This document shows, in pieces, positions 1,636-60,053 of a stretch of 64,000 nucleotides of DNA. The notes beneath the pieces were generated by a model. The model searched no databases, was not told the DNA's origin, and saw nothing but the letters and a program-made list of their open reading frames with translations. The stretch spans positions 1 through 64,000 of the forward strand of contig CASEYJ010000007.1 of NCBI GenBank assembly GCA_949292175.1. Reading direction: 5' to 3'. A program made the position numbers and the translations under genes. Numbering within the stretch: position 1 is the stretch's first letter; each line of letters begins with the position of its first letter. The DNA is from an uncultured bacterium (GTDB lineage: Bacteria > Cyanobacteriota > Vampirovibrionia > Gastranaerophilales > Gastranaerophilaceae).

Positions 1636-1665
1636 AAAGAGATAGGCGGGATTGCCTATCTCTTT
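1636..1665. terminator. hairpin terminator between convergent genes
   Basis: AAAGAGATAGGC pairs with GCCTATCTCTTT across a 6-nt loop, just after the rubrerythrin stop. The right arm overlaps the stop codon of the convergent CMD-cupin gene at 1656, so the arms may serve both directions, although the T tracts are short. Confidence 0.7.
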
Positions 1666-2537
1666 AGTTTTAAACCGTTATAATATTCATCAGAAACCGG
1701 CTCTAACCACTCATTAGAAGTCTCTACCCCATCTAACTCAAAAGCTAAATGAGAGAACCAAGAATCAGGAGCCGCACCATGCCAGTGTTTCACGCCAGCC
1801 GGAATATGAATAACTGTTCCTTCAACAATTTCAACAGGGTCTTTGCCCCATTCTTGGTAGTAACCTCTACCACCAACACCAATTAGCATTTGTCCACCAC
1901 CAGATTTCGCATTATGGATATGCCAATTATTTCTACATCCGGGTTCAAACGTTACATTAAATATTTTCACCTGTTCAGTAGAAACCGGAGCTAAATAACT
2001 TTGCCCGATAAAATATTTTGCATACGCAGTATTTGCCTCTCCAACAGGGAACATTATAGTTTTTTCATACTGTTCTTTTGAAGAAGGTTGAACAGAATCT
2101 TCCGTCCAAACAGTTTTAGCCAAATTAAATGCCGCCCAAGCCTTTGGCCAACCTGCATAAAACGCATTATGAGTAATTATTGCTGCAATTTCTTCTTTTG
2201 TAACGCCATGATTTTTAGCATTCTGTAAATGATATATCAGGGAATTATCTGTAATACCCATAGAAATCAATGATACAACAGTAATAATACTCCTTGTTTT
2301 CAAATCAATATCTTGATTATTCCAATTTTCACCAAATAAAACATCGTCATTAAATTTGGCAAATTCTGGTGCAAAATCACCGAGTTGAACCCTTCCCGCC
2401 GTTTGTATTATCTTTTGCATATTATCTCCTTTATTAAAATTATTACTCTGAGTATTAGTTTTTGCAAGACAAGGATTAATAATTATGTTGGTTGAAAGCA
2501 TCAACAATGCTAACAAAATACTTACTTTATCTTTCAT
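1656..2537 (-). CDS. secreted carboxymuconolactone decarboxylase-cupin fusion protein
   Basis: A 293-residue fusion. Residues 1-25 form a signal peptide (hydrophobic core, then CLAKT). Residues about 50-145 resemble the carboxymuconolactone decarboxylase/AhpD family, but of the type lacking the CxxC redox pair. Residues about 165-270 are a cupin with metal-ligand-like WHIH (206, 208) and KHWHG (251, 253). Proteins of this layout are common in gut bacteria but their substrate is not established. It is the last gene of the LysR-linked operon, 7 nt after the preceding hydrolase, which is also exported; the two may act together outside the cytoplasm. Confidence 0.85.
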   Translation of the reverse strand: MKDKVSILLALLMLSTNIIINPCLAKTNTQSNNFNKGDNMQKIIQTAGRVQLGDFAPEFAKFNDDVLFGENWNNQDIDLKTRSIITVVSLISMGITDNSLIYHLQNAKNHGVTKEEIAAIITHNAFYAGWPKAWAAFNLAKTVWTEDSVQPSSKEQYEKTIMFPVGEANTAYAKYFIGQSYLAPVSTEQVKIFNVTFEPGCRNNWHIHNAKSGGGQMLIGVGGRGYYQEWGKDPVEIVEGTVIHIPAGVKHWHGAAPDSWFSHLAFELDGVETSNEWLEPVSDEYYNGLKLKR

Positions 2538-2544
2538 ATTCCAC

Positions 2545-3582
2545 CTATTTCAAGTTTTCTTTGTAAAACGCTTCAATTTCATCAAATGGAATCTTCTCTA
2601 AATTGTCATACAAATCAACGTGATTAGCATCTTTGATAATCAACAATCTTTTATTATCACCAGTCAACTTCTTGAAAGCCCCTTCTGAAAAATAACGGCT
2701 ATGAGCATTTTCGCCATGAATCATCAAAACCGGAGTTCTAATCTCGCCGGCATAAGCTAAAATTGGCTGATTAATCAAAGAAAGACTAGAAGTTAAATTC
2801 CAGTTCCCATTTGAATTTATAGCTCTTGGATGATAACCTCTTTTGGTTTTATAATATGCCCAATAATCTTTCATAAATTGAGGTTCATTTCCTTGTAACT
2901 TATCCGGATTACTTGGAGCCTTCGCAAACGTTCCACTTTTAAAATCTTCAGTACGTTGCTTATTTAAGACTTTTTTAAGTTCATATCGAGCATTCTCATC
3001 CATAACATCATTGTATCCAAAAGCATTCACTCTTGTCATATCGTACATTGTCGATGTAACTGTGGCTTTAATTCTTGTGTCAATAGCCGCGGCATTAAGA
3101 GCAAAACCGCCAAACCCACAAATACCAAGGATACCAATACGTTCAGAATCAACATTTTTCTGCACACTTAAAAAATCTACGGCAGCCGAAAAATCCTCAG
3201 TGTTTATGTCAGGCGAAGCAACATTTCTAGGTTCGCCAGAACTTTCACCCGTATAACTTGGATCGAAAGCTAAGGTAATAAAACCCCTCTCAGCAAGTGT
3301 TTGAGCATATAATCCTGAAGCCTGCTCTTTTACTGCCCCAAAAGGACCTGAAATTGCGATACCTGAAAGTTTTTCACTATTACTTATATTTTTAGGGATA
3401 TACATATCCCCAACCAAAGTTATTCCAAATCGATTTTTGAAACTTACTTTTTTAATTTCAACTTTATCTGATTTTGGAAAAACCTTATCCCAATTATCAA
3501 CCGATTTTGCATGTACCATATTACTTACTCCTATAAAAAATAATCCGACAAGTATAATCCCAACTAGAAGTTTATTAAACAC
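2545..3582 (-). CDS. exported alpha/beta hydrolase with Cys nucleophile (YcjY-like)
   Basis: A 345-residue alpha/beta hydrolase with an N-terminal signal peptide (residues 1-25, ending VHAKS). The nucleophile elbow reads G-I-C-G-F-G-G, placing Cys155 where most relatives carry Ser, as in dienelactone hydrolases and E. coli YcjY. The catalytic His is probably H321 in DANHVDLYD; the acid residue is less clear. It starts at GTG behind AAGGAGGA; the start overlaps the upstream hydrolase by 8 nt, so translation is probably coupled. The paired hydrolases share the ending motif HVDLYD and look like duplicated genes, one cytoplasmic and one exported. Substrate unknown. Confidence 0.85.
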   Translation of the reverse strand: MFNKLLVGIILVGLFFIGVSNMVHAKSVDNWDKVFPKSDKVEIKKVSFKNRFGITLVGDMYIPKNISNSEKLSGIAISGPFGAVKEQASGLYAQTLAERGFITLAFDPSYTGESSGEPRNVASPDINTEDFSAAVDFLSVQKNVDSERIGILGICGFGGFALNAAAIDTRIKATVTSTMYDMTRVNAFGYNDVMDENARYELKKVLNKQRTEDFKSGTFAKAPSNPDKLQGNEPQFMKDYWAYYKTKRGYHPRAINSNGNWNLTSSLSLINQPILAYAGEIRTPVLMIHGENAHSRYFSEGAFKKLTGDNKRLLIIKDANHVDLYDNLEKIPFDEIEAFYKENLK

Positions 3583-4531
3583 AATTGTCCTCCTTTAAAT
3601 TTTTTGAAAAATAGGAAACAAGTTTTTCTACAACCTGATCTACAAATTGAGGCTTGTCGTATAAATCAACATGGGTTGCCCCCTGGATAGTAAATATTTC
3701 TTTAGGCTCTAACGCTTTTTCATAACAATTATGAGTGTAAAATAAAGTATCAGCCTCAGACCCAACTATTAACAAAATTGGTCTTGGAGAAACAGTATCA
3801 ATATGAGCAAACGCATCCCAAGCAGCAAGCTTATCATTACTTGACACCAGATACCTGTTAACAGATGTAGGATAATAACACCTTTCCGTTCTATAATACT
3901 CACTAGCCTCTTTTGAAATGACAGACGGAGCATTTTTAATTTCCTCTTCAGTTTCCGGTACATATTTCCAATATCTGGCTTCCTCACCTAACGCTTCCGC
4001 ATTTCGTGCTTCTGCAACTTCTTTAAGCAGTTTTTTCAAATAATCTTTTTCATCGACACCAGGGAACCCATTTTTTGCACTATCACCAACATCCCAAGTA
4101 CTAATTCCTGCTGCTGCCTTTATTCTTAAGTCTGTTTGAATAGCATTCATCGTATATCCACCACCGGCACAGACGCCCATAGCTCCAATACCTTCACTAT
4201 CTACATATTTAAGAGTGACTAAATAATCAACCGCAGAATGAATATCCTCAACTCTTGAAGTCGGATCCTCGAGATATCTCGGAAGCCCTTCACTCTCCCC
4301 CTGATGACTAGCATCGAAAGCTAATGCGACGAAACCGTGCTGAGCTAAATTCCAAGCATAAAGGGAAGAACATTGTTCTTTCACGCCTCCACCAGGGTGC
4401 GTTACAACTATTGCCGGATATTTTTTATCTTCTTCGAAATTCTTAGGTAAAAATAAAAGACCAGCAATATTCAAATCAAATTTTTTAAAAGTTACCTTTA
4501 AACCCTCTTTATAATGAGTATCGTATAACAT
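3575..4531 (-). CDS. cytoplasmic alpha/beta hydrolase with Cys nucleophile
   Basis: A 318-residue hydrolase similar in layout to its downstream neighbour but without a signal peptide. The nucleophile elbow is G-V-C-A-G-G (Cys121), the acid is probably Asp261 in GSEADT, and the catalytic His is H287 in GATHVDLYD. The insert between strands 6 and 7 (about 150-240) would form a helical cap. Ribosome binding site AAGGAG precedes the ATG. It overlaps the next gene by 8 nt. Dienelactone-hydrolase-type chemistry on a lactone or ester is the reasonable guess from the Cys, but no substrate can be named. Confidence 0.85.
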   Translation of the reverse strand: MLYDTHYKEGLKVTFKKFDLNIAGLLFLPKNFEEDKKYPAIVVTHPGGGVKEQCSSLYAWNLAQHGFVALAFDASHQGESEGLPRYLEDPTSRVEDIHSAVDYLVTLKYVDSEGIGAMGVCAGGGYTMNAIQTDLRIKAAAGISTWDVGDSAKNGFPGVDEKDYLKKLLKEVAEARNAEALGEEARYWKYVPETEEEIKNAPSVISKEASEYYRTERCYYPTSVNRYLVSSNDKLAAWDAFAHIDTVSPRPILLIVGSEADTLFYTHNCYEKALEPKEIFTIQGATHVDLYDKPQFVDQVVEKLVSYFSKNLKEDNCV

Positions 4532-4541
4532 AAAAATCTCC

Positions 4542-5084
4542 TTAATTTATTGATTTACCAAGCTCATACGCTTCTTTCAAGCCAGCATTACCTTCGATAT
4601 CGCCGACATTAGTAACACCGATAGCTCTAACAACACCCTTCAACTCAACTCCGGAATGACAATCAATCCAACCTTGGAGTCCTGCTATTGTTGTATCCAT
4701 AGCGGCCTCATCATTTTCTGCACAAGTCGCCAACAAATATACATCCTTAAACTTATTTGCAGTCGTGAACAATGGGTTTGAACGATCTATCATTGTTTTC
4801 ATCTGACCTGACATACAATAGTAATACACAGGAGTTGCCCAAACTATTACATCTGAGTCCTTAATTTTTTCATTTATATTATTTGCATCGTCATCTATCA
4901 CACATCTTTTAAGCTCCATACAAGCAAGACAGCCTTTGCAAAAACTTATTTTCTTATCGCATAAATAGATAACTTCAACCTGATTTCCTGCTTCTAATGC
5001 TCCTTTCTCAAATTCCTGCGCTAATCTATTAGAATTTCCATTCTTTCTTGGACTTGTTCCTATAATCAAAACTCTCTTTGCCAT
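4542..5084 (-). CDS. flavodoxin-family NAD(P)H-dependent FMN reductase
   Basis: A 180-residue flavodoxin-like protein. The N-terminal phosphate loop GTSPRKNGNS binds FMN, followed by CKGCLACM and a further Cys, the pattern of iron-sulfur flavoproteins and related NAD(P)H oxidoreductases. The PVYYYCMSGQMK segment is the second flavin-binding loop. The start was set at the ATG of MAKRVL because AGAGG lies 5 nt upstream; an in-frame GTG two codons earlier has no proper spacing. It sits between the acetyltransferase and hydrolase genes in the LysR-linked operon and likely supplies reducing power. Its partner substrate is unknown. Confidence 0.85.
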   Translation of the reverse strand: MAKRVLIIGTSPRKNGNSNRLAQEFEKGALEAGNQVEVIYLCDKKISFCKGCLACMELKRCVIDDDANNINEKIKDSDVIVWATPVYYYCMSGQMKTMIDRSNPLFTTANKFKDVYLLATCAENDEAAMDTTIAGLQGWIDCHSGVELKGVVRAIGVTNVGDIEGNAGLKEAYELGKSIN

Positions 5085-5096
5085 AAACACCTCTTT

Positions 5097-5675
5097 CTAT
5101 TTATTCTCAGATTCAATATACTTAATAATTTTCGCAGGATTACCTGCGACAACAGCATTTTTGGGAACATCTTTAACTACAACCGCTCCAGCACCGATTA
5201 TAGCACCATCGTTCACCGTTACGCCCGGAATAATTGTTACATTCGAACCTATCCAAACATCATTCCCAATTTTAACTTTCTTAGCAATCATAGATAATCT
5301 ACTTGGAATATCAAAACAATGATTCAATGTCGTAATAACAACAGAATGTCCTATCAGTACATTATCACCAATTTCAATTCCACCTTGATCTTGAAATTTA
5401 CAACAAGCATTTATAAAAACGTTTTTTCCAACAGATATATTAACCCCACACTCTGTATAAAATGGGGGAAACATTCTGAAACTTTTATCAACTTCTTTAT
5501 CTGTTAATTTTGAAAACAGTGTCCTTATTTCGTCTTGATTGTGATATTCACAATTTAATTTCATCGTTACTTTTCGAGCTTCCTCTGACAACTCAAAAAA
5601 CTTTTGTAAAATAGGAGAATCCTTATCTACAAAATCATGAGTTTTCATATATTCAATAAATTCTTTATTATTCAT
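5097..5675 (-). CDS. sugar O-acetyltransferase, left-handed beta-helix (maltose/galactoside acetyltransferase family)
   Basis: A 192-residue acetyl-CoA-dependent O-acetyltransferase. The N-terminal Mac-type helical region (about 1-60) is followed by hexapeptide repeats of the left-handed beta-helix, with the family-typical TTLNHCF, WIGSNVTIIPGV and AVVVKDVPKNAVVAGNPAK segments. The start at MNNKEF is chosen because AGAGGG lies 7 nt upstream; the reading frame continues 19 codons further without a ribosome site. It is the first gene of the operon divergent from lysR. Such enzymes often sit in mixed operons as detoxifying or modifying acetyltransferases; the acceptor is unknown. Confidence 0.9.
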   Translation of the reverse strand: MNNKEFIEYMKTHDFVDKDSPILQKFFELSEEARKVTMKLNCEYHNQDEIRTLFSKLTDKEVDKSFRMFPPFYTECGVNISVGKNVFINACCKFQDQGGIEIGDNVLIGHSVVITTLNHCFDIPSRLSMIAKKVKIGNDVWIGSNVTIIPGVTVNDGAIIGAGAVVVKDVPKNAVVAGNPAKIIKYIESENK

Positions 5676-5746
5676 TAAAATACCCTCTAAGTTATATTTT
5701 AGATATAAACTATTATTTACTATTTTTATCAAAATAGCAAATACCT

Positions 5747-5774
5747 ATAATAAATAATCAGTAATGCTTGACAA
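5747..5774 (-). promoter_or_regulatory. promoter of the LysR-linked operon
   Basis: On the minus strand, TTGTCA (5769-5774), a 16-bp spacer and TATTAT (5747-5752). The -35 lies inside the 19-bp palindrome and overlaps the -35 of the divergent lysR promoter almost completely. Confidence 0.6.
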
Positions 5775-5780
5775 GCATTA
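5762..5780. promoter_or_regulatory. 19-bp perfect palindrome, likely LysR operator
   Basis: TAATGCTTGACAAGCATTA: two 9-bp arms around a central A, 23 bp before the lysR start codon. It has the T-N11-A style symmetry expected for LysR-type binding sites and lies across both divergent -35 boxes. Confidence 0.75.
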
Positions 5781-5796
5781 CAAAAAATTTTAATAT
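5768..5796 (+). promoter_or_regulatory. lysR promoter, apparently leaderless
   Basis: Consensus TTGACA (5768-5773), 17-bp spacer and TAATAT (5791-5796). The ATG begins only 6 nt after the -10 box, so the predicted transcript starts at or next to the start codon. No Shine-Dalgarno sequence is present. Confidence 0.65.
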
Positions 5797-5802
5797 ACTC
5801 TT

Positions 5803-6723
5803 ATGGAAATCAGAGTACTAAAATATTTTTTAACAGTAGCAGAAATAGGCAACATAACAAAAGCCGCAAACTCAATGCACCTAACCCAACCAACCTTATC
5901 GAGGCAACTACAAGACCTTGAAAAAGAACTTGGTCAAAAACTCTTCATTAGAGGGAACCATAATGTAACCCTAACCCCTGAAGGAATAATTTTAAGGAAA
6001 AGAGCAGAAGAAATTATAGAACTTGTCGAAAAAACGGAAAATGAATTTATTTCTATCAAAGAAGAAATCTCCGGGGATATATACATAGGTGCTGGAGAAA
6101 CAAAATCGATAAGCCTAATTTCTGATGTGATGGCCACTCTAAAAAAAGATTATCCAAAAATCAAATTTCATATTGTATCTGGGGATAGCGAAGATTTGTC
6201 TGAAAAATTAGATAAAGGGTTATTGGATTTTTGTATATTTATTGAGCCATTTGACGTTGAGATGTATCCGCAAAAATACAACTATCTGAACCTTGGAGAA
6301 AAAGATGTTTGGGGTATTTTATTAAGAAACGATGACCCTTTAGCAAAAAAGGAAAGCGTAGAAATACAAGATCTACTAGACTTACCTCTTTTAATTTCCA
6401 GACAAGCCATAAAAAAATCATTCGAAAAAAATCCTATCTTGAACTGGTTTGGGAACAATTACGACAAATTAAACATAGCAGGCACATATAATCTAATCTA
6501 TAATGCAGCCATTATGACGGAGAACAAAATAGGTTACACTCTAGGCTTGGACAGATTGATAAAAGATACAATCAACAGTCCATTATGCTTCAGACCCCTA
6601 AACCCTAAATTAGAAGTTGAAGTTAACATTGCCTGGAAAAAGAATCAAATATTTTCTCGCCCTTCAAAGCTCTTCTTAGAAGAATTAAACAAAAAATTTT
6701 TGAGCCAATTACCTAGAACATAA
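5803..6723 (+). CDS. LysR-family transcriptional regulator
   Basis: A 306-residue LysR-type regulator. The winged helix-turn-helix occupies about residues 1-60 (ITKAANSMHLTQPTLSRQ is the recognition region), then a linker helix and the two-lobed effector-binding domain from about 90. It is transcribed divergently from the acetyltransferase-flavodoxin-hydrolase-CMD operon and is the likely regulator of that operon through the palindrome at 5762-5780, which should also give autorepression. Its 3' end overlaps the convergent antiporter gene by 11 bp. The effector cannot be predicted. Confidence 0.95.
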   Translation: MEIRVLKYFLTVAEIGNITKAANSMHLTQPTLSRQLQDLEKELGQKLFIRGNHNVTLTPEGIILRKRAEEIIELVEKTENEFISIKEEISGDIYIGAGETKSISLISDVMATLKKDYPKIKFHIVSGDSEDLSEKLDKGLLDFCIFIEPFDVEMYPQKYNYLNLGEKDVWGILLRNDDPLAKKESVEIQDLLDLPLLISRQAIKKSFEKNPILNWFGNNYDKLNIAGTYNLIYNAAIMTENKIGYTLGLDRLIKDTINSPLCFRPLNPKLEVEVNIAWKKNQIFSRPSKLFLEELNKKFLSQLPRT

Positions 6724-8014
6724 TAACAGCCAATATTGCAAAAACAATCAATGGAATATTAAAATGCAAAAATGTAGGGATACACGTGTCAGTTATATGG
6801 TTATGCTGCCCATCAAAATTTAACCCTGCAGTAGGGCCAAGGGTTGTATCAGAAGCTGGAGACCCAGCATCACCCAAAGCCGCAGCAGCAGCTATCACGA
6901 TAACAGTTGCAGCAAGGCTAAACCCTAAATTTTGACAAATTGGCACATACAATACCGCCAAAATAGGAATAGTACCAAAAGAAGTTCCAATACCCATCGT
7001 AATAAACAAACCAACGAACAACATTAGAGCAGCTGCAATAATTTTATTTCCACCCATAAATGGAACAATTGCAGAAACAAGAGATTCAACTCCACCCGTA
7101 GATTTTAGAACCATTGCAAAGCCTGCCGCAACAAGCATTACAAAAGCTACATATCCCATCATACCAATACCTTCATTAATGAGCTTATCCATCTTGTCAT
7201 GATCAATAGTTTTTGTTCCAAAAATTATACTAAGCCCAACTAAAGCACCAAGTGGTAATGAATTTGTTAAAAGCTGAACAACTAAAGTCATTAACGCAGC
7301 AAAAAGAGTTATGTAATGATTTTTATTAAATCCGGCAACTTCCTCTTTCTCGATATCCATATTAACATCGCTATATTCACGAGGTTTAGCATAAGATACG
7401 AAAACCGATATTAACAAACCAACAGTCATTGCCACGCCTAAAAACCAGGTATAATGCCAAACGTCACTTTTTGCAACGTGAATTCCGTTTTGCGTAATAT
7501 TATCAGCGAGTAAGCCTTGGAATATCAAACCAAAACCTGCCGGAATCATTATATAAGGAGTCTTAAGTCCATAAGCTAAAGCACACGCAACAGCACGCCT
7601 ATCTAACTTCAATTTATTCATAATCGCCAAAAGCGGCGGAATCATAATCGGAATAAATGCAATATGCACAGGAATTAAATTCTGTGACATAACAGCCATT
7701 ACCACCAGAATAAAAAGTAAAAGATATTTATTCGACTTAATTATAGAAGCAATTTTCTTTGCTAAAAGTGCATCTAACCCTGTATGCGTCATAGAAGCAG
7801 CAAACGCACCTAAGAGAATATAACTCAAAGCTGTTTCCGCATTTCCTCCCATGCCACTAATAAAAATATGCATAATTTCGGTTATTGAAATATGACCGAT
7901 AATACCTGCAACAATCGCAGAAATCATTAACGACAAAAGTACATTCACTTTGCAAAGGCACAGTACGCATAATAAAATGACTGAAACTATAATAGGGTTA
8001 AACAATACTTCCAT
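6713..8014 (-). CDS. Na+/H+ antiporter family membrane protein (NhaC-like)
   Basis: A 433-residue inner membrane protein with roughly 11-12 hydrophobic segments, resembling the NhaC/Na_H_antiporter superfamily. The most recognisable region is the C-terminal GDAGSPASDTTLGPTAGL followed by polar residues within membrane, a conserved signature of this group. It probably exchanges Na+ for H+, though some relatives carry organic acids or amino acids. The gene is monocistronic. On its promoter side, TAGTAT lies 6 nt before the ATG (8021-8026) and no ribosome site is seen, so it may also be leaderless, but the -35 is weak. Confidence 0.85.
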   Translation of the reverse strand: MEVLFNPIIVSVILLCVLCLCKVNVLLSLMISAIVAGIIGHISITEIMHIFISGMGGNAETALSYILLGAFAASMTHTGLDALLAKKIASIIKSNKYLLLFILVVMAVMSQNLIPVHIAFIPIMIPPLLAIMNKLKLDRRAVACALAYGLKTPYIMIPAGFGLIFQGLLADNITQNGIHVAKSDVWHYTWFLGVAMTVGLLISVFVSYAKPREYSDVNMDIEKEEVAGFNKNHYITLFAALMTLVVQLLTNSLPLGALVGLSIIFGTKTIDHDKMDKLINEGIGMMGYVAFVMLVAAGFAMVLKSTGGVESLVSAIVPFMGGNKIIAAALMLFVGLFITMGIGTSFGTIPILAVLYVPICQNLGFSLAATVIVIAAAAALGDAGSPASDTTLGPTAGLNFDGQHNHITDTCIPTFLHFNIPLIVFAILAVIMF

Positions 8015-8112
8015 AAAAAGATACTAACACAAACAACATTACAGAATAAAGATATTTATACAATTAATTTATACACCTGGGTAATTGTTAACATTATATT
8101 GTGGGGGTTAAA

Positions 8113-24916: not shown

Positions 24917-24944
24917 TTGTTCTACCGGATTTTTGCAATATAAT
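24917..24944 (+). promoter_or_regulatory. ribF promoter, apparently leaderless
   Basis: TTGTTC (24917-24922), 16-bp spacer and TATAAT (24939-24944), with the ATG 6 nt after the -10 box. Only a weak AGG, 2 nt from the ATG, could serve as ribosome site. Confidence 0.6.
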
Positions 24945-24950
24945 TAGGCT

Positions 24951-25853
24951 ATGGAAATATTTTCAGAACCAAATAAAAAGAATAATCTCTCTCTTGCCCT
25001 AGGGTATTTTGATGGCGTACACCTTGGTCATAAGGCTGTTATAAAATCAGCAGTAGAATATGCTCGCAAGCACGGCACAAAATCAGCAGTAATAACGTTT
25101 AAAGATCATCCTTGCTGTTACTTTTACGGAGTTTGTCCAAAATATATTCTCTCGAGAGAAGAACGCCGCAAGCAAATTGAAAAAATTGGTATAGATTATC
25201 TTTACGAACTTGATTTTAGTAAAATTTCAACATTATCCGCTCAGGATTATCTTGAAAATATTTTAATAAAAAATTTCAGCCCGATAAGCATCTCCACCGG
25301 ATTTAACCACTATTTTGGAGCTCAAAAATCCGGCTCGACAGAATTTTTAACTCAAATGTCAAATAAATATAATTATATATATTTTAAAATTGACGAAAAA
25401 AAACTTAATGGAGAAACAATTAGCAGTACCGCAATAAGGAACCTTTTGGCAGACGGGAATATCGCGAAAGCTAATCTAATGCTTGGTTACAACTTCTCAA
25501 TCGAAGGAACCGTCATAAAAGGTCAACAACTCGGCAGAAAAATAGGATTTAGAACAGCAAACATAACTTATCCACCGGAACTTATAACTGTACCTTTCGG
25601 AGCATACTCAGTAAAAGTAATCCTACAAGGACAAGTTTATAACGGAGTAACAAATATTGGTATTAGACCTACTGTCTCAACTTCAAATCGATGTAGCGTT
25701 GAAACTCATATAATAGATTTCAATAAAGATATTTATGGTGAAAAAATCCGGGTAGAATTCATAAATATGCTCCGCCCGGAAAAAAAATTCAATTCTCTTG
25801 ATGAATTAAAGAAACAAATTAAATATGATATTTCATCAACGCTATTTGATTAA
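24951..25853 (+). CDS. ribF: bifunctional riboflavin kinase/FAD synthetase
   Basis: A 300-residue cytoplasmic enzyme converting riboflavin to FMN and then FAD. The N-terminal nucleotidyltransferase domain (about 1-175) has GYFDGVHLGHKAV and the ISSTAIRNLL signature. The C-terminal flavokinase domain (about 180-300) has GTVIKGQQLGRKIGFRTANI and VTNIGIRPTV. Length is typical. The predicted transcript starts at the ATG (leaderless). The stop overlaps the convergent hydrolase gene by 12 bp. No FMN riboswitch is visible upstream. Confidence 0.96.
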   Translation: MEIFSEPNKKNNLSLALGYFDGVHLGHKAVIKSAVEYARKHGTKSAVITFKDHPCCYFYGVCPKYILSREERRKQIEKIGIDYLYELDFSKISTLSAQDYLENILIKNFSPISISTGFNHYFGAQKSGSTEFLTQMSNKYNYIYFKIDEKKLNGETISSTAIRNLLADGNIAKANLMLGYNFSIEGTVIKGQQLGRKIGFRTANITYPPELITVPFGAYSVKVILQGQVYNGVTNIGIRPTVSTSNRCSVETHIIDFNKDIYGEKIRVEFINMLRPEKKFNSLDELKKQIKYDISSTLFD

Positions 25854-33120: not shown

Positions 33121-33205
33121 AGCTTACTCCCTAATCTCTTACAAGATACTATCACGAAACAAAACTATTTTCAACAACGAAAATCTATACGCAAAAATAC
33201 CTTTA

Positions 33206-33214
33206 TGCTATAAT
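33206..33214 (+). promoter_or_regulatory. extended -10 promoter of the phosphoglucomutase gene
   Basis: TGC directly before TATAAT (33209-33214), the same extended -10 as for rubrerythrin. The ATG is at 33240 behind GGGAG. Confidence 0.6.
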
Positions 33215-33239
33215 TTACCTATACATGAAGGGAGATTTT

Positions 33240-40680: not shown

Positions 40681-40814
40681 ACTACCTTCTCTCCCTTAAA
40701 CTATTTTTTATAAGGACATTGTATTCCAAAATACTTAACTTCGCAACAGTTACAAATCAGATATAAAAAACTTAACATTTAGACAAGAATAAAAAATTAT
40801 AGTTAAATTATGGT

Positions 40815-41159
40815 ATGAGTGACGAAATAAACAAAAAAGTTACAAATATATTTTCAAGGCATAACAAAGACCTTCCTCCACAATCAGGAGAGAGAGTCAA
40901 ATTTTATGCGGGCTTCAACTACGTTAGAATAGACAAAGATACTAACGGAAACAAATTCAACAAAGAACACCTGCTTAAATATGCGGAGCGTTGCCACTAT
41001 ATAGTAAGAGTTATGAGAGAATATAAGGGAGAAATCGTATTGTATAACTACGATGTACCTAATGATGCCTTGTTCAAATTTATAAAATCTTTTGAGGAAA
41101 ATACACTTGATGGAAAAATAATAGAAATAGACAAGTATTTTCCTGAAACATCCGCTTAA
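40815..41159 (+). CDS. conserved-looking hypothetical protein, 114 aa
   Basis: A 114-residue soluble protein with no signal peptide and no recognised domain. The N-terminal half has KKVTNIFSRHN and the C-terminal half VRVMREYKGEIVLYNYDV, a compact alpha/beta composition. A poor TTAAAT -10-like box (40803-40808) lies 6 nt before the ATG, with TAGACA about 17 bp upstream, and no ribosome site is present, so leaderless translation is possible. It precedes the MBL-fold gene by 44 bp. Function unknown. Confidence 0.7.
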   Translation: MSDEINKKVTNIFSRHNKDLPPQSGERVKFYAGFNYVRIDKDTNGNKFNKEHLLKYAERCHYIVRVMREYKGEIVLYNYDVPNDALFKFIKSFEENTLDGKIIEIDKYFPETSA

Positions 41160-41168
41160 AAATTTTAA

Positions 41169-41197
41169 TTGACAAAATTTAAAACATAATATAGAAT
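41169..41197 (+). promoter_or_regulatory. promoter of the MBL-fold gene, apparently leaderless
   Basis: Consensus TTGACA (41169-41174), exactly 17-bp spacer and TAGAAT (41192-41197). The ATG is at 41204, 6 nt past the -10 box, so transcription should begin at the start codon. No Shine-Dalgarno sequence is present. Confidence 0.75.
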
Positions 41198-41203
41198 AGC
41201 CAT

Positions 41204-42001
41204 ATGAAAATTACGGTTTTAGTTGATAACAACACATCTGCTGGAAATTGTCTCATATCAGAACACGGTTTGTCGTTTTACGTAGAAGAAGGCTCGCTAA
41301 AACTTCTTTTTGACTGCGGTTCTAGTGATGCATTTATAAAGAATGCATACAATATGCAGATAGATTTAGCTGATGTTACGGACATTATTTTGTCCCACGG
41401 ACATTTTGATCATATTGGCGGTTTTCTGAGATTACAAGCTTTATACAGAAAATTTAGCCTATCAGGTATTGAGTTTAATGAAAAGAAGTTAATAGCACAT
41501 CCTGATGTATTTAAACCTGAAAATGGTGAAATATACCGCGGTGAAAACTTCAAACTTACAATTGAAGAAGTTCAGAAGTTCTTCAACCTTGAATTAACCA
41601 AGGGTGCGAAGTTTCTTTCACCAAAACTGGTATATTTGGGAGAAATCCCTATAACATACGGAAAAACTCAAAACGACTACACATCTGATGAAACAGCTTT
41701 AGCTTATAAGTCAAAAGACGGACTTGTTATAATTTCAGGTTGTTCACACAGCGGTGTTAAAAACATTATTGAACACGCAAAATATATAACAGGTGAACCT
41801 CGAGTAAATACCATTATCGGTGGCTTATACTTGATTAATAAAACAGAAGATTACATCAATGATCTTGGTGAATACTTAAAATCTCAAGAAGTTGAAAGAA
41901 TTTATCCTTGTCATTGTACGGATTTAGAAGCGAAAATTCTTCTGTCTAAATATGTAAAAGTAGAAGATGTATGCACCGGTAAAAAATACACTTGGGAATA
42001 A
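41204..42001 (+). CDS. MBL-fold metallo-hydrolase (dihydropterin phosphate synthase-like group)
   Basis: A 265-residue metallo-beta-lactamase-fold protein. The metal motif HGHFDHIGG (about 65-73) replaces the usual HxHxDH with H-G-H-F-D-H; further ligands are GCSHSGVKN and the C-terminal PCHCTDLEA. This ligand arrangement and an N-terminal VDNNTSAGNCLISEHG phrase place it with 7,8-dihydropterin-6-methyl phosphate-type enzymes seen in anaerobes and methanogens. Substrate not established. The best-supported leaderless gene in the window. Confidence 0.85.
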   Translation: MKITVLVDNNTSAGNCLISEHGLSFYVEEGSLKLLFDCGSSDAFIKNAYNMQIDLADVTDIILSHGHFDHIGGFLRLQALYRKFSLSGIEFNEKKLIAHPDVFKPENGEIYRGENFKLTIEEVQKFFNLELTKGAKFLSPKLVYLGEIPITYGKTQNDYTSDETALAYKSKDGLVIISGCSHSGVKNIIEHAKYITGEPRVNTIIGGLYLINKTEDYINDLGEYLKSQEVERIYPCHCTDLEAKILLSKYVKVEDVCTGKKYTWE

Positions 42002-58838: not shown

Positions 58839-58931
58839 GAACACCTTCTTTTATTTACAACTTCACGTAATAATTATACGCTATATTACCATTTTCATCA
58901 ATCCAGAGAGAAAATAATCATTTGTTTGAAG

Positions 58932-58937
58932 TATAAT
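58932..58937 (+). promoter_or_regulatory. recF -10 box, apparently leaderless
   Basis: TATAAT at 58932-58937 lies exactly 6 nt before the ATG at 58944. No ribosome site is present. The -35 is poor (AGAAAA at the 17-bp position). Confidence 0.55.
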
Positions 58938-58943
58938 TTTCAT

Positions 58944-60053
58944 ATGAAACTAATTAATTTACAGCTAAAGAATTACAGAAACTGTAAAAATCTTACACTT
59001 GACTTAAATTCTAAAAAGATTTTAATAATCGGGAAAAATGCTCAAGGGAAAACTAATATATTGGAAAGCATATATTTTCTATCAACTTTAAAAAGCCCAA
59101 GAACATCAGTAGCCCAAGAATTAATCAATTTTGATACAAATTCCTTAAGCATAAATACAAATTTAGTAAAAGCTGATACTGAAATTGAACTTGATTATTC
59201 GTACAATCGAGAAAAACAAAGAGAACTTAGAATTAACAAAGTCAAAACAACCCCTAAAAATTTCAAAACAGTTTTAAAAACAGTATTATTTTCAACCACA
59301 GACCTATTACTGCTAAGAGGAAATCCTTCAGATAGGAGAGATTGGCTTGATAGGGCTATTGCACAAATATATCCGGCATACGATGAAAGACTTTCCAAAT
59401 ATGACAAAATAAGAATTCAAAAGAATAATTGCCTCAAAGACTATCTAAAAACCGGCAATCTCAACGAAACATTGCTTGATGTATATAATGAACAACTTGT
59501 AATCACTGGCAGCAATATCATATATCTTAGAATAAAATTCTTAAAAGAAATAGAAAAAATTGCAAAAGAAAAACACAGAATAATCAGTGAAACAGAAGAA
59601 TTAAAGCTCAAATACGACTGTTCTTTCCTTGGCGAAGAAACTGAATTAGAAGAAATTGTTGAAAAATTTAAACAATCCATATCAGAAAAAAGAGGAGAAG
59701 AGCTAAGGCGAGGACAAAGTTGCACCGGCCCACACAGAGATGATATTCAGTTCTTTATTAATAACAACGAAGCAACAAAATTTGCATCTCAAGGACAACA
59801 ACGAACAATTGTTCTTGCACTTAAACTTTCAGAATTGGATATTATAACTGCCAAAACAGGAGATGAACCCATTTTATTACTTGACGATGTTTTGGCTGAG
59901 CTAGACGACATTAGACAAAACTATTTGCTTAAATCTATCAATTCAAACACTCAAACAGTAATTACATCCGTAGATACAATCCTTTTTGAAGACGAATTTC
60001 TAAAAGATGTAAAAATATACAAAATTGAAAACGGGAACGTAAACGCTGACTAA
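58944..60053 (+). CDS. recF: DNA replication and repair protein RecF
   Basis: A 369-residue cytoplasmic SMC-like ATPase that loads RecA at gaps with RecO and RecR. Walker A is GKNAQGKTN (about 30-38), the signature region is TGPHRDDIQFFIN and ASQGQQRTIVLALKLSELD, Walker B is LLLDDVLAELDD. Length is typical. The start at MKLINLQL is chosen because an in-frame upstream TTG overlaps the TATAAT -10 box. It is not next to dnaA-dnaN-gyrB as in many bacteria. It overlaps the convergent yraN gene by 4 bp. Confidence 0.96.
   Translation: MKLINLQLKNYRNCKNLTLDLNSKKILIIGKNAQGKTNILESIYFLSTLKSPRTSVAQELINFDTNSLSINTNLVKADTEIELDYSYNREKQRELRINKVKTTPKNFKTVLKTVLFSTTDLLLLRGNPSDRRDWLDRAIAQIYPAYDERLSKYDKIRIQKNNCLKDYLKTGNLNETLLDVYNEQLVITGSNIIYLRIKFLKEIEKIAKEKHRIISETEELKLKYDCSFLGEETELEEIVEKFKQSISEKRGEELRRGQSCTGPHRDDIQFFINNNEATKFASQGQQRTIVLALKLSELDIITAKTGDEPILLLDDVLAELDDIRQNYLLKSINSNTQTVITSVDTILFEDEFLKDVKIYKIENGNVNAD

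Follow-up and report, generated by a model that had tools for sequence, protein, structure and literature searches.

Why should unrelated genes in one stretch of bacterial DNA carry a -10-like hexamer at the same short distance from their start codons? The window, meaning the whole stretch of 64,000 nucleotides analyzed here, corresponds to contig C7 of a Gastranaerophilales (Vampirovibrionia/Melainabacteria) MAG of 1.63 Mb in 17 contigs (90% complete), and the nearest relatives of its recF gene (identity 84% and lower) belong nearly all to Candidatus Gastranaerophilales or Melainabacteria MAGs from gut and rumen. A preliminary description had counted at least four, possibly six, genes with such a hexamer 6 nt before the ATG; all six are present, and in each the gap is exactly 6. 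The reading we favor, with a probability of roughly 90%, is that genes with this spacing are leaderless: σ70-type promoters would have transcription begin at the A of AUG, and translation would proceed on an mRNA without a leader.

The MBL-fold gene (41204-42001) and lysR (5803-6723) have predicted leaderless promoters of closely similar build, both on the plus strand. The first (41169-41203) consists of TTGACA (41169-41174), 17 nt, TAGAAT (41192-41197) and 6 nt before the ATG at 41204; the second (5768-5802) of TTGACA (5768-5773), 17 nt, TAATAT (5791-5796) and 6 nt before the ATG at 5803. These two had been singled out as the strongest cases, which is correct for the -35 box, but on the class motif score both rank below recF and ribF. 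The recF -10 is an exact TATAAT (58932-58937; 58932-58943 up to the ATG at 58944, plus strand, score 12.8), as is that of ribF (24939-24944; 24939-24950 up to the ATG at 24951, plus strand, score 12.4). Two sites are weaker: TTAAAT, 6 nt before the ATG at 40815 (40803-40814, plus strand, score 6.9), and a candidate extended -10, TGTGTTAGTAT, 6 nt before the antiporter ATG at 8014 (TAGTAT 8026-8021; 8015-8026, minus strand, score 6.1). Pfam domains begin close to the N-terminus in four of the six products—HTH_1 at residue 4 (lysR), FAD_syn at 8 (ribF), SMC_N at 3 (recF), and Na_H_antiport_2 at 6 (antiporter)—so that, whatever lies upstream, these four ATGs are probably correct.

Three further observations concern the same loci or their surroundings. 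The gene at 40815-41159 encodes a 114-aa protein without a Pfam match, which occurs in 35 of 40 family genomes at 32-96% identity and represents a conserved family. The MBL-fold gene has a paralogue in its own genome (C6:2016-2768, locus L127; 46% identity) that is also predicted to be leaderless, with an exact TATAAT at gap 6. Elsewhere in the window (33199-33225), an extended -10, TATGCTATAAT, lies 10 nt before the ATG at 33225 in a start region lacking a Shine-Dalgarno (SD) sequence; the predicted leader is about 4 nt long.

The spacing was evaluated beyond the window in a sample of 864 kb, about half of the genome, made up of the window and 800 kb of further stretches of the same genome. 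Our own simple gene finder called 807 genes from coding statistics and a start-codon prior, leaving upstream sequence unused, and TATAAT was scored at every distance before the ATG in the 756 genes that start with it. An exact TATAAT stands at gap 6 in 27 genes, as compared with a mean of 2.1 and a maximum of 6 at gaps 10-59, and with 0-6 genes at every other gap examined. With up to one mismatch allowed, the count at gap 6 is 55 against a mean of 19 at gaps 10-59. A core motif score peaks there as well, assigning 39 genes to gap 6 and 0-7 to each other gap; an apparent TANNNT count at gap 0 was not upheld by this score (4 genes). Among the genes with GTG or TTG starts, too few for a firm comparison (n=51), no clear excess at gap 6 was seen.

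Upstream regions in this genome are about 72% A+T, and chance TATAAT hexamers in AT-rich intergenic DNA would be the simplest explanation of such a count. Dinucleotide shuffles refute it: in 200 shuffles, exact TATAAT at gap 6 occurred 1.24 times on average and never more than 5 times, and the looser hexamer 15.7 ± 3.8 times with a maximum of 28, below the 27 and 55 genes observed. Taken together with the family-wide excess and the conserved recF spacing described below, these counts leave a compositional artefact with next to no credibility. The preliminary description had proposed this same comparison with shuffled upstream regions and had named a flat distribution of gaps as the outcome that would speak against leaderless starts; because the peak at gap 6 rises far above both the shuffles and the other gaps, the distribution is anything but flat, and the earlier judgment that identical spacing in unrelated genes is unlikely to be accidental is borne out.

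The aligned upstream regions of the 55 gap-6 genes resemble promoters in several respects. Their consensus is roughly TTTRTGnTATAATnnnnnT followed directly by the ATG, with a T-rich stretch at -19 to -17 and an extended -10 (TGn) in which T occupies -15 in 65% of genes and G occupies -14 in 55%. Matches to the -35 box peak at a spacer of 17 nt, where 12 of the 55 genes lie within two mismatches; other spacers mostly give 0-5. The idea that the TGn extension and the -35 box substitute for one another was dropped, there being no association between them (p = 1.0). Position -1 is a T in 51 of the 55 genes (93%), as against 46% of other genes, and since this position played no part in selection, it provides independent support for the class. 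A T at -1 before an A at +1 is also how a focused start on that A would be expected to look.

As had been claimed of the window's genes, these starts lack a proper SD, whereas most others have one: an SD match of at least 4 was found in 2 of 52 class genes and in 474 of the remaining 704 (p = 8e-21). The 3' end of 16S rRNA (GGNTCACCTCCTTT) was searched for without a match, the rRNA probably being missing from the MAG; SDs are abundant nonetheless. Class genes stand apart from their upstream neighbors (median intergenic distance 85.5 nt), none starting less than 20 nt behind the preceding gene, which is what one would expect if they came first in their transcription units. Scanning of in-frame ATGs with the class motif returned 56 genes at a score of at least 6, where about 2 would be expected from out-of-frame decoys. 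On this basis the leaderless share would be about 7% of genes, or one in fifteen, and some 100 genes genome-wide by scaling, an estimate that is only approximate because the genes being scored had also served to train the matrix. Their functions are a wide mix, mainly housekeeping; members assigned by Pfam include smpB, tsaD, tsaE, uvrA, uvrB, relA/spoT, aroA (EPSP synthase), ribD, ribF, recF, MTHFR, lptF/G, NFACT, two histidine kinases, and small regulators.

Two other explanations accept the motif and read it differently. In one, transcription starts 1-5 nt before the ATG, yielding very short leaders. The distance from -10 to +1 generally varies by a base or two, orthologues with gap 7 exist, and DNA alone does not separate a leader of 1-2 nt from none. 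The peak is nonetheless restricted to gap 6, with 39 genes there as against 1 and 6 at gaps 5 and 7, respectively, and the T at -1 in 93% of the genes before the A suggests a start on the A itself; we regard such short leaders as unlikely. The other denies that the AT-rich element is a promoter and makes it a signal for translation, namely a start region that is unstructured or binds S1. In its favor, neither SD nor TA-like signals are present in many cyanobacterial genomes, which may initiate by other means (PMC3160421), and the coding-sequence starts of the class are slightly less structured than those of other genes (mean -1.83 vs. -2.69 kcal/mol, p = 0.008). Against this stand promoter features—a precise TATAAT at one distance, the TGn extension, and the -35 peak at 17 nt—and the behavior of MBL and 40815 orthologues, which move the same core upstream and gain an SD, as a promoter would. 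A translation signal of this kind is, accordingly, highly improbable.

The favored leaderless reading is also supported by orthologues. In recF, an exact TATAAT at exactly gap 6 is kept in 67 of 80 species, most of the others having gap 7. At the loci of these 80 relatives with recF removed, 37 exact TATAAT sites fall at gap 6, as opposed to 0-3 at gaps 1-5 and 7-12, and T occupies -1 in 35 of the 37; a second, lower peak of 25 at gap 23 comes, at least in part, from one or two recurring genes with leaders. Upstream of the recF -10 (58908-58937), a stretch like TAATCATTTGTTTGAAG is conserved in most of the family, and may possibly be a regulator site or an unusual -35. Among ribF orthologues, 23 of 30 have a -10 within one mismatch at gap 6, though the remaining upstream sequence is largely unrelated; 6 of the 30 have no -10 at gap 6 or 7 and mostly no SD, which counts against the leaderless reading. 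The four stronger window genes (MBL, lysR, ribF, and recF) hold up as leaderless candidates. The gene at 40815 also gains support, from orthologues with TTTAAT at gap 6. For the antiporter, the hexamer is present at gap 6 as described, but its orthologues do not confirm it: within one mismatch of TATAAT, 0 of 24 have a hexamer at gap 6, and a few keep TAGTAT there, so this case stays weak.

Several of these genes appear to exist in two forms. MBL orthologues keep TTGACA with a -10 at gap 6-7 and no SD, or have the -10 at 14-27 nt, mostly with an SD. Of 29 lysR orthologues with TTGAC, 24 have it 34-37 nt before the ATG; in the other 5 it lies 46-59 nt away, and all 5 have an SD. Where the -10 of 40815 orthologues is near the ATG, TTTAAT in an TATTGTTTAAT-like core stands at gap 6 behind an TTTAGACA-like -35 with no SD; where the TATTGTTTAAT-like core lies farther upstream, several orthologues have an SD of the AGGAGG type. 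Pooled over ribF, MBL, and lysR, an SD occurs in 3 of 56 orthologues whose -10 lies at gap 6 or 7 and in 14 of 26 otherwise (p = 1.7e-6, a value that overstates independence, the orthologues being related). Leaderless and SD-led modes thus seem close to exclusive within a single orthologous gene, a pattern that neither a translation-only account nor chance would predict.

In the case of lysR, a second signal overlies the promoter. A 21-bp inverted repeat, GTAATGCTTGACAAGCATTAC, recognized by comparing the sequence with its reverse complement, covers the -35 box (5761-5781), and an ATGCTTGACAGGCAT-like core of it is present in most orthologues. The palindrome lies between lysR and a divergent operon (1656-5732) of alpha/beta hydrolases, an FMN reductase, and a gene of the carboxymuconolactone-decarboxylase family. 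A dyad overlapping the regulator's own promoter and a divergent neighboring operon are the layout of LysR autoregulation, and both are present here; the palindrome is probably a LysR operator, with autoregulation as the likely consequence. Because TTGACA falls inside it, conservation of that hexamer in lysR may owe as much to the operator as to the -35 box.

The spacing recurs throughout the window's family, probably Gastranaerophilaceae. Across 146 genomes of the phylum, matches to TATAATN5TATG (gap 6) were compared with matches to TATAATN8TATG (gap 9). Every one of the 62 family genomes has more sites at gap 6 than at gap 9 (4835 vs. 1256 overall), while the other 76 phylum genomes show hardly any excess (601 vs. 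528); two families were counted separately, f2 of the same class (71 vs. 50) and f5 of the same phylum (83 vs. 16). The stricter TGnTATAATN5TATG occurs at 19 sites in the window's genome, with 0 in the reversed control, and typically at 10-30 sites in family members; elsewhere, the one genome from a different family of the order has 6, f35 has a few, and f33, which may be too GC-rich for the exact pattern, has almost none. The excess at gap 6 in f5, together with the several sites in f35 against few in its controls, hints that the mode is older or arose more than once. Some divergent gene pairs carry the pattern on both sides: at C3:43515-43565 and C4:10340-10390 (L111 and L121) of the window's own genome, both genes are predicted to be leaderless, with ATGs 45 nt apart. 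Of 117 family genomes, 45 have the two-headed pattern, which is absent from the reversed controls; a single fixed spacing for such pairs was ruled out, the range being 42-66 nt.

The proposal that transcription begins at the A of ATG fits, at the level of DNA, the gap-6 excess, the absence of SDs, the T at -1, the -35 peak at 17 nt, and the family-wide spacing. RNA polymerase of the σ70 type would bind TATAAT, often TGn-extended and sometimes accompanied by a -35 at 17 nt; the position of the -10 would make the A of the ATG the first transcribed base, and the T at -1 and A at +1 would help to hold it there. The mRNA would then begin with 5'-AUG, with neither leader nor SD, and ribosome contact would be made via the AUG. 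Leaderless mRNAs are bound mostly by 70S ribosomes or by IF2-fMet-tRNA complexes. Leaderless initiation would be a minority mode beside SD-led initiation, conserved in the family, and single genes would have switched modes as the promoter slid relative to the ATG and an SD was gained or lost. More broadly, we lean toward the view that gut Vampirovibrionia gained a genome-wide leaderless mode, or kept it while photosynthetic cyanobacteria lost it, in a strict form (extended -10, T at -1, AUG) between which and SD-led initiation genes toggle by promoter sliding.

This would extend substantial leaderless translation to the non-photosynthetic, gut-dwelling sister group of cyanobacteria, in a phylum many of whose members, according to a large survey, have neither SD-led nor leaderless genes. 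It also supplies many uncultured genomes with starts and promoters for some 100 genes each, which gene callers relying on SDs may misplace. The promoter-sliding series in lysR, MBL, and orf40815 represent natural experiments on switching of initiation mode; if gain or retention and toggling are true, the evolution of initiation mode could be traced gene by gene.

Comparison with known systems places these genes within a wider pattern. Actinobacteria such as Mycobacterium tuberculosis reportedly combine SD-led mRNAs with leaderless ones and use TANNNT -10 boxes. In this group about a quarter of transcripts are leaderless and GUG starts are common, unlike the present genome, where GTG and TTG starts (n=51) give no clear gap-6 excess. 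The 2011 survey of bacterial start signals is older than the Gastranaerophilales genomes. The preliminary description had listed actinobacteria, Deinococcus, and archaea as groups with leaderless mRNAs; the list was too narrow, TA-led (leaderless) genes being widespread in bacteria (Zheng et al., 2011; PMC3160421), so that the novelty is confined to the lineage. It had also known of no description in this lineage, and we likewise found no paper on leaderless genes in Melainabacteria or Gastranaerophilales in the open-licence literature, where the mode appears to be undescribed, although an earlier report may exist. Many Cyanobacteria were found to use neither SD-led nor leaderless genes, and the survey's table has no Cyanobacteria group (PMC3160421). 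Its TA-led genes, like ours, occur alongside SD-led ones and have a Pribnow box whose first T lies about 12 bp ahead of the start codon, and the leaderless fraction estimated here lies within the published bacterial range (PMC3160421). A TG-extended -10, as here, is found in low-GC genomes such as Lactococcus (PMC3160421). A further parallel comes from Deinococcus-Thermus, for which a 2025 paper gives experimental proof of a leaderless mode with the -10 abutting the ORF and a spacing requirement, recF being among its examples as well (PMC12340547). There the mode covers about 30% of ORFs with a loose TANNNT (PMC12340547; Zheng et al., 2011), whereas here its share would be about 7%, and the TATAAT is strong and extended, with a T at -1.
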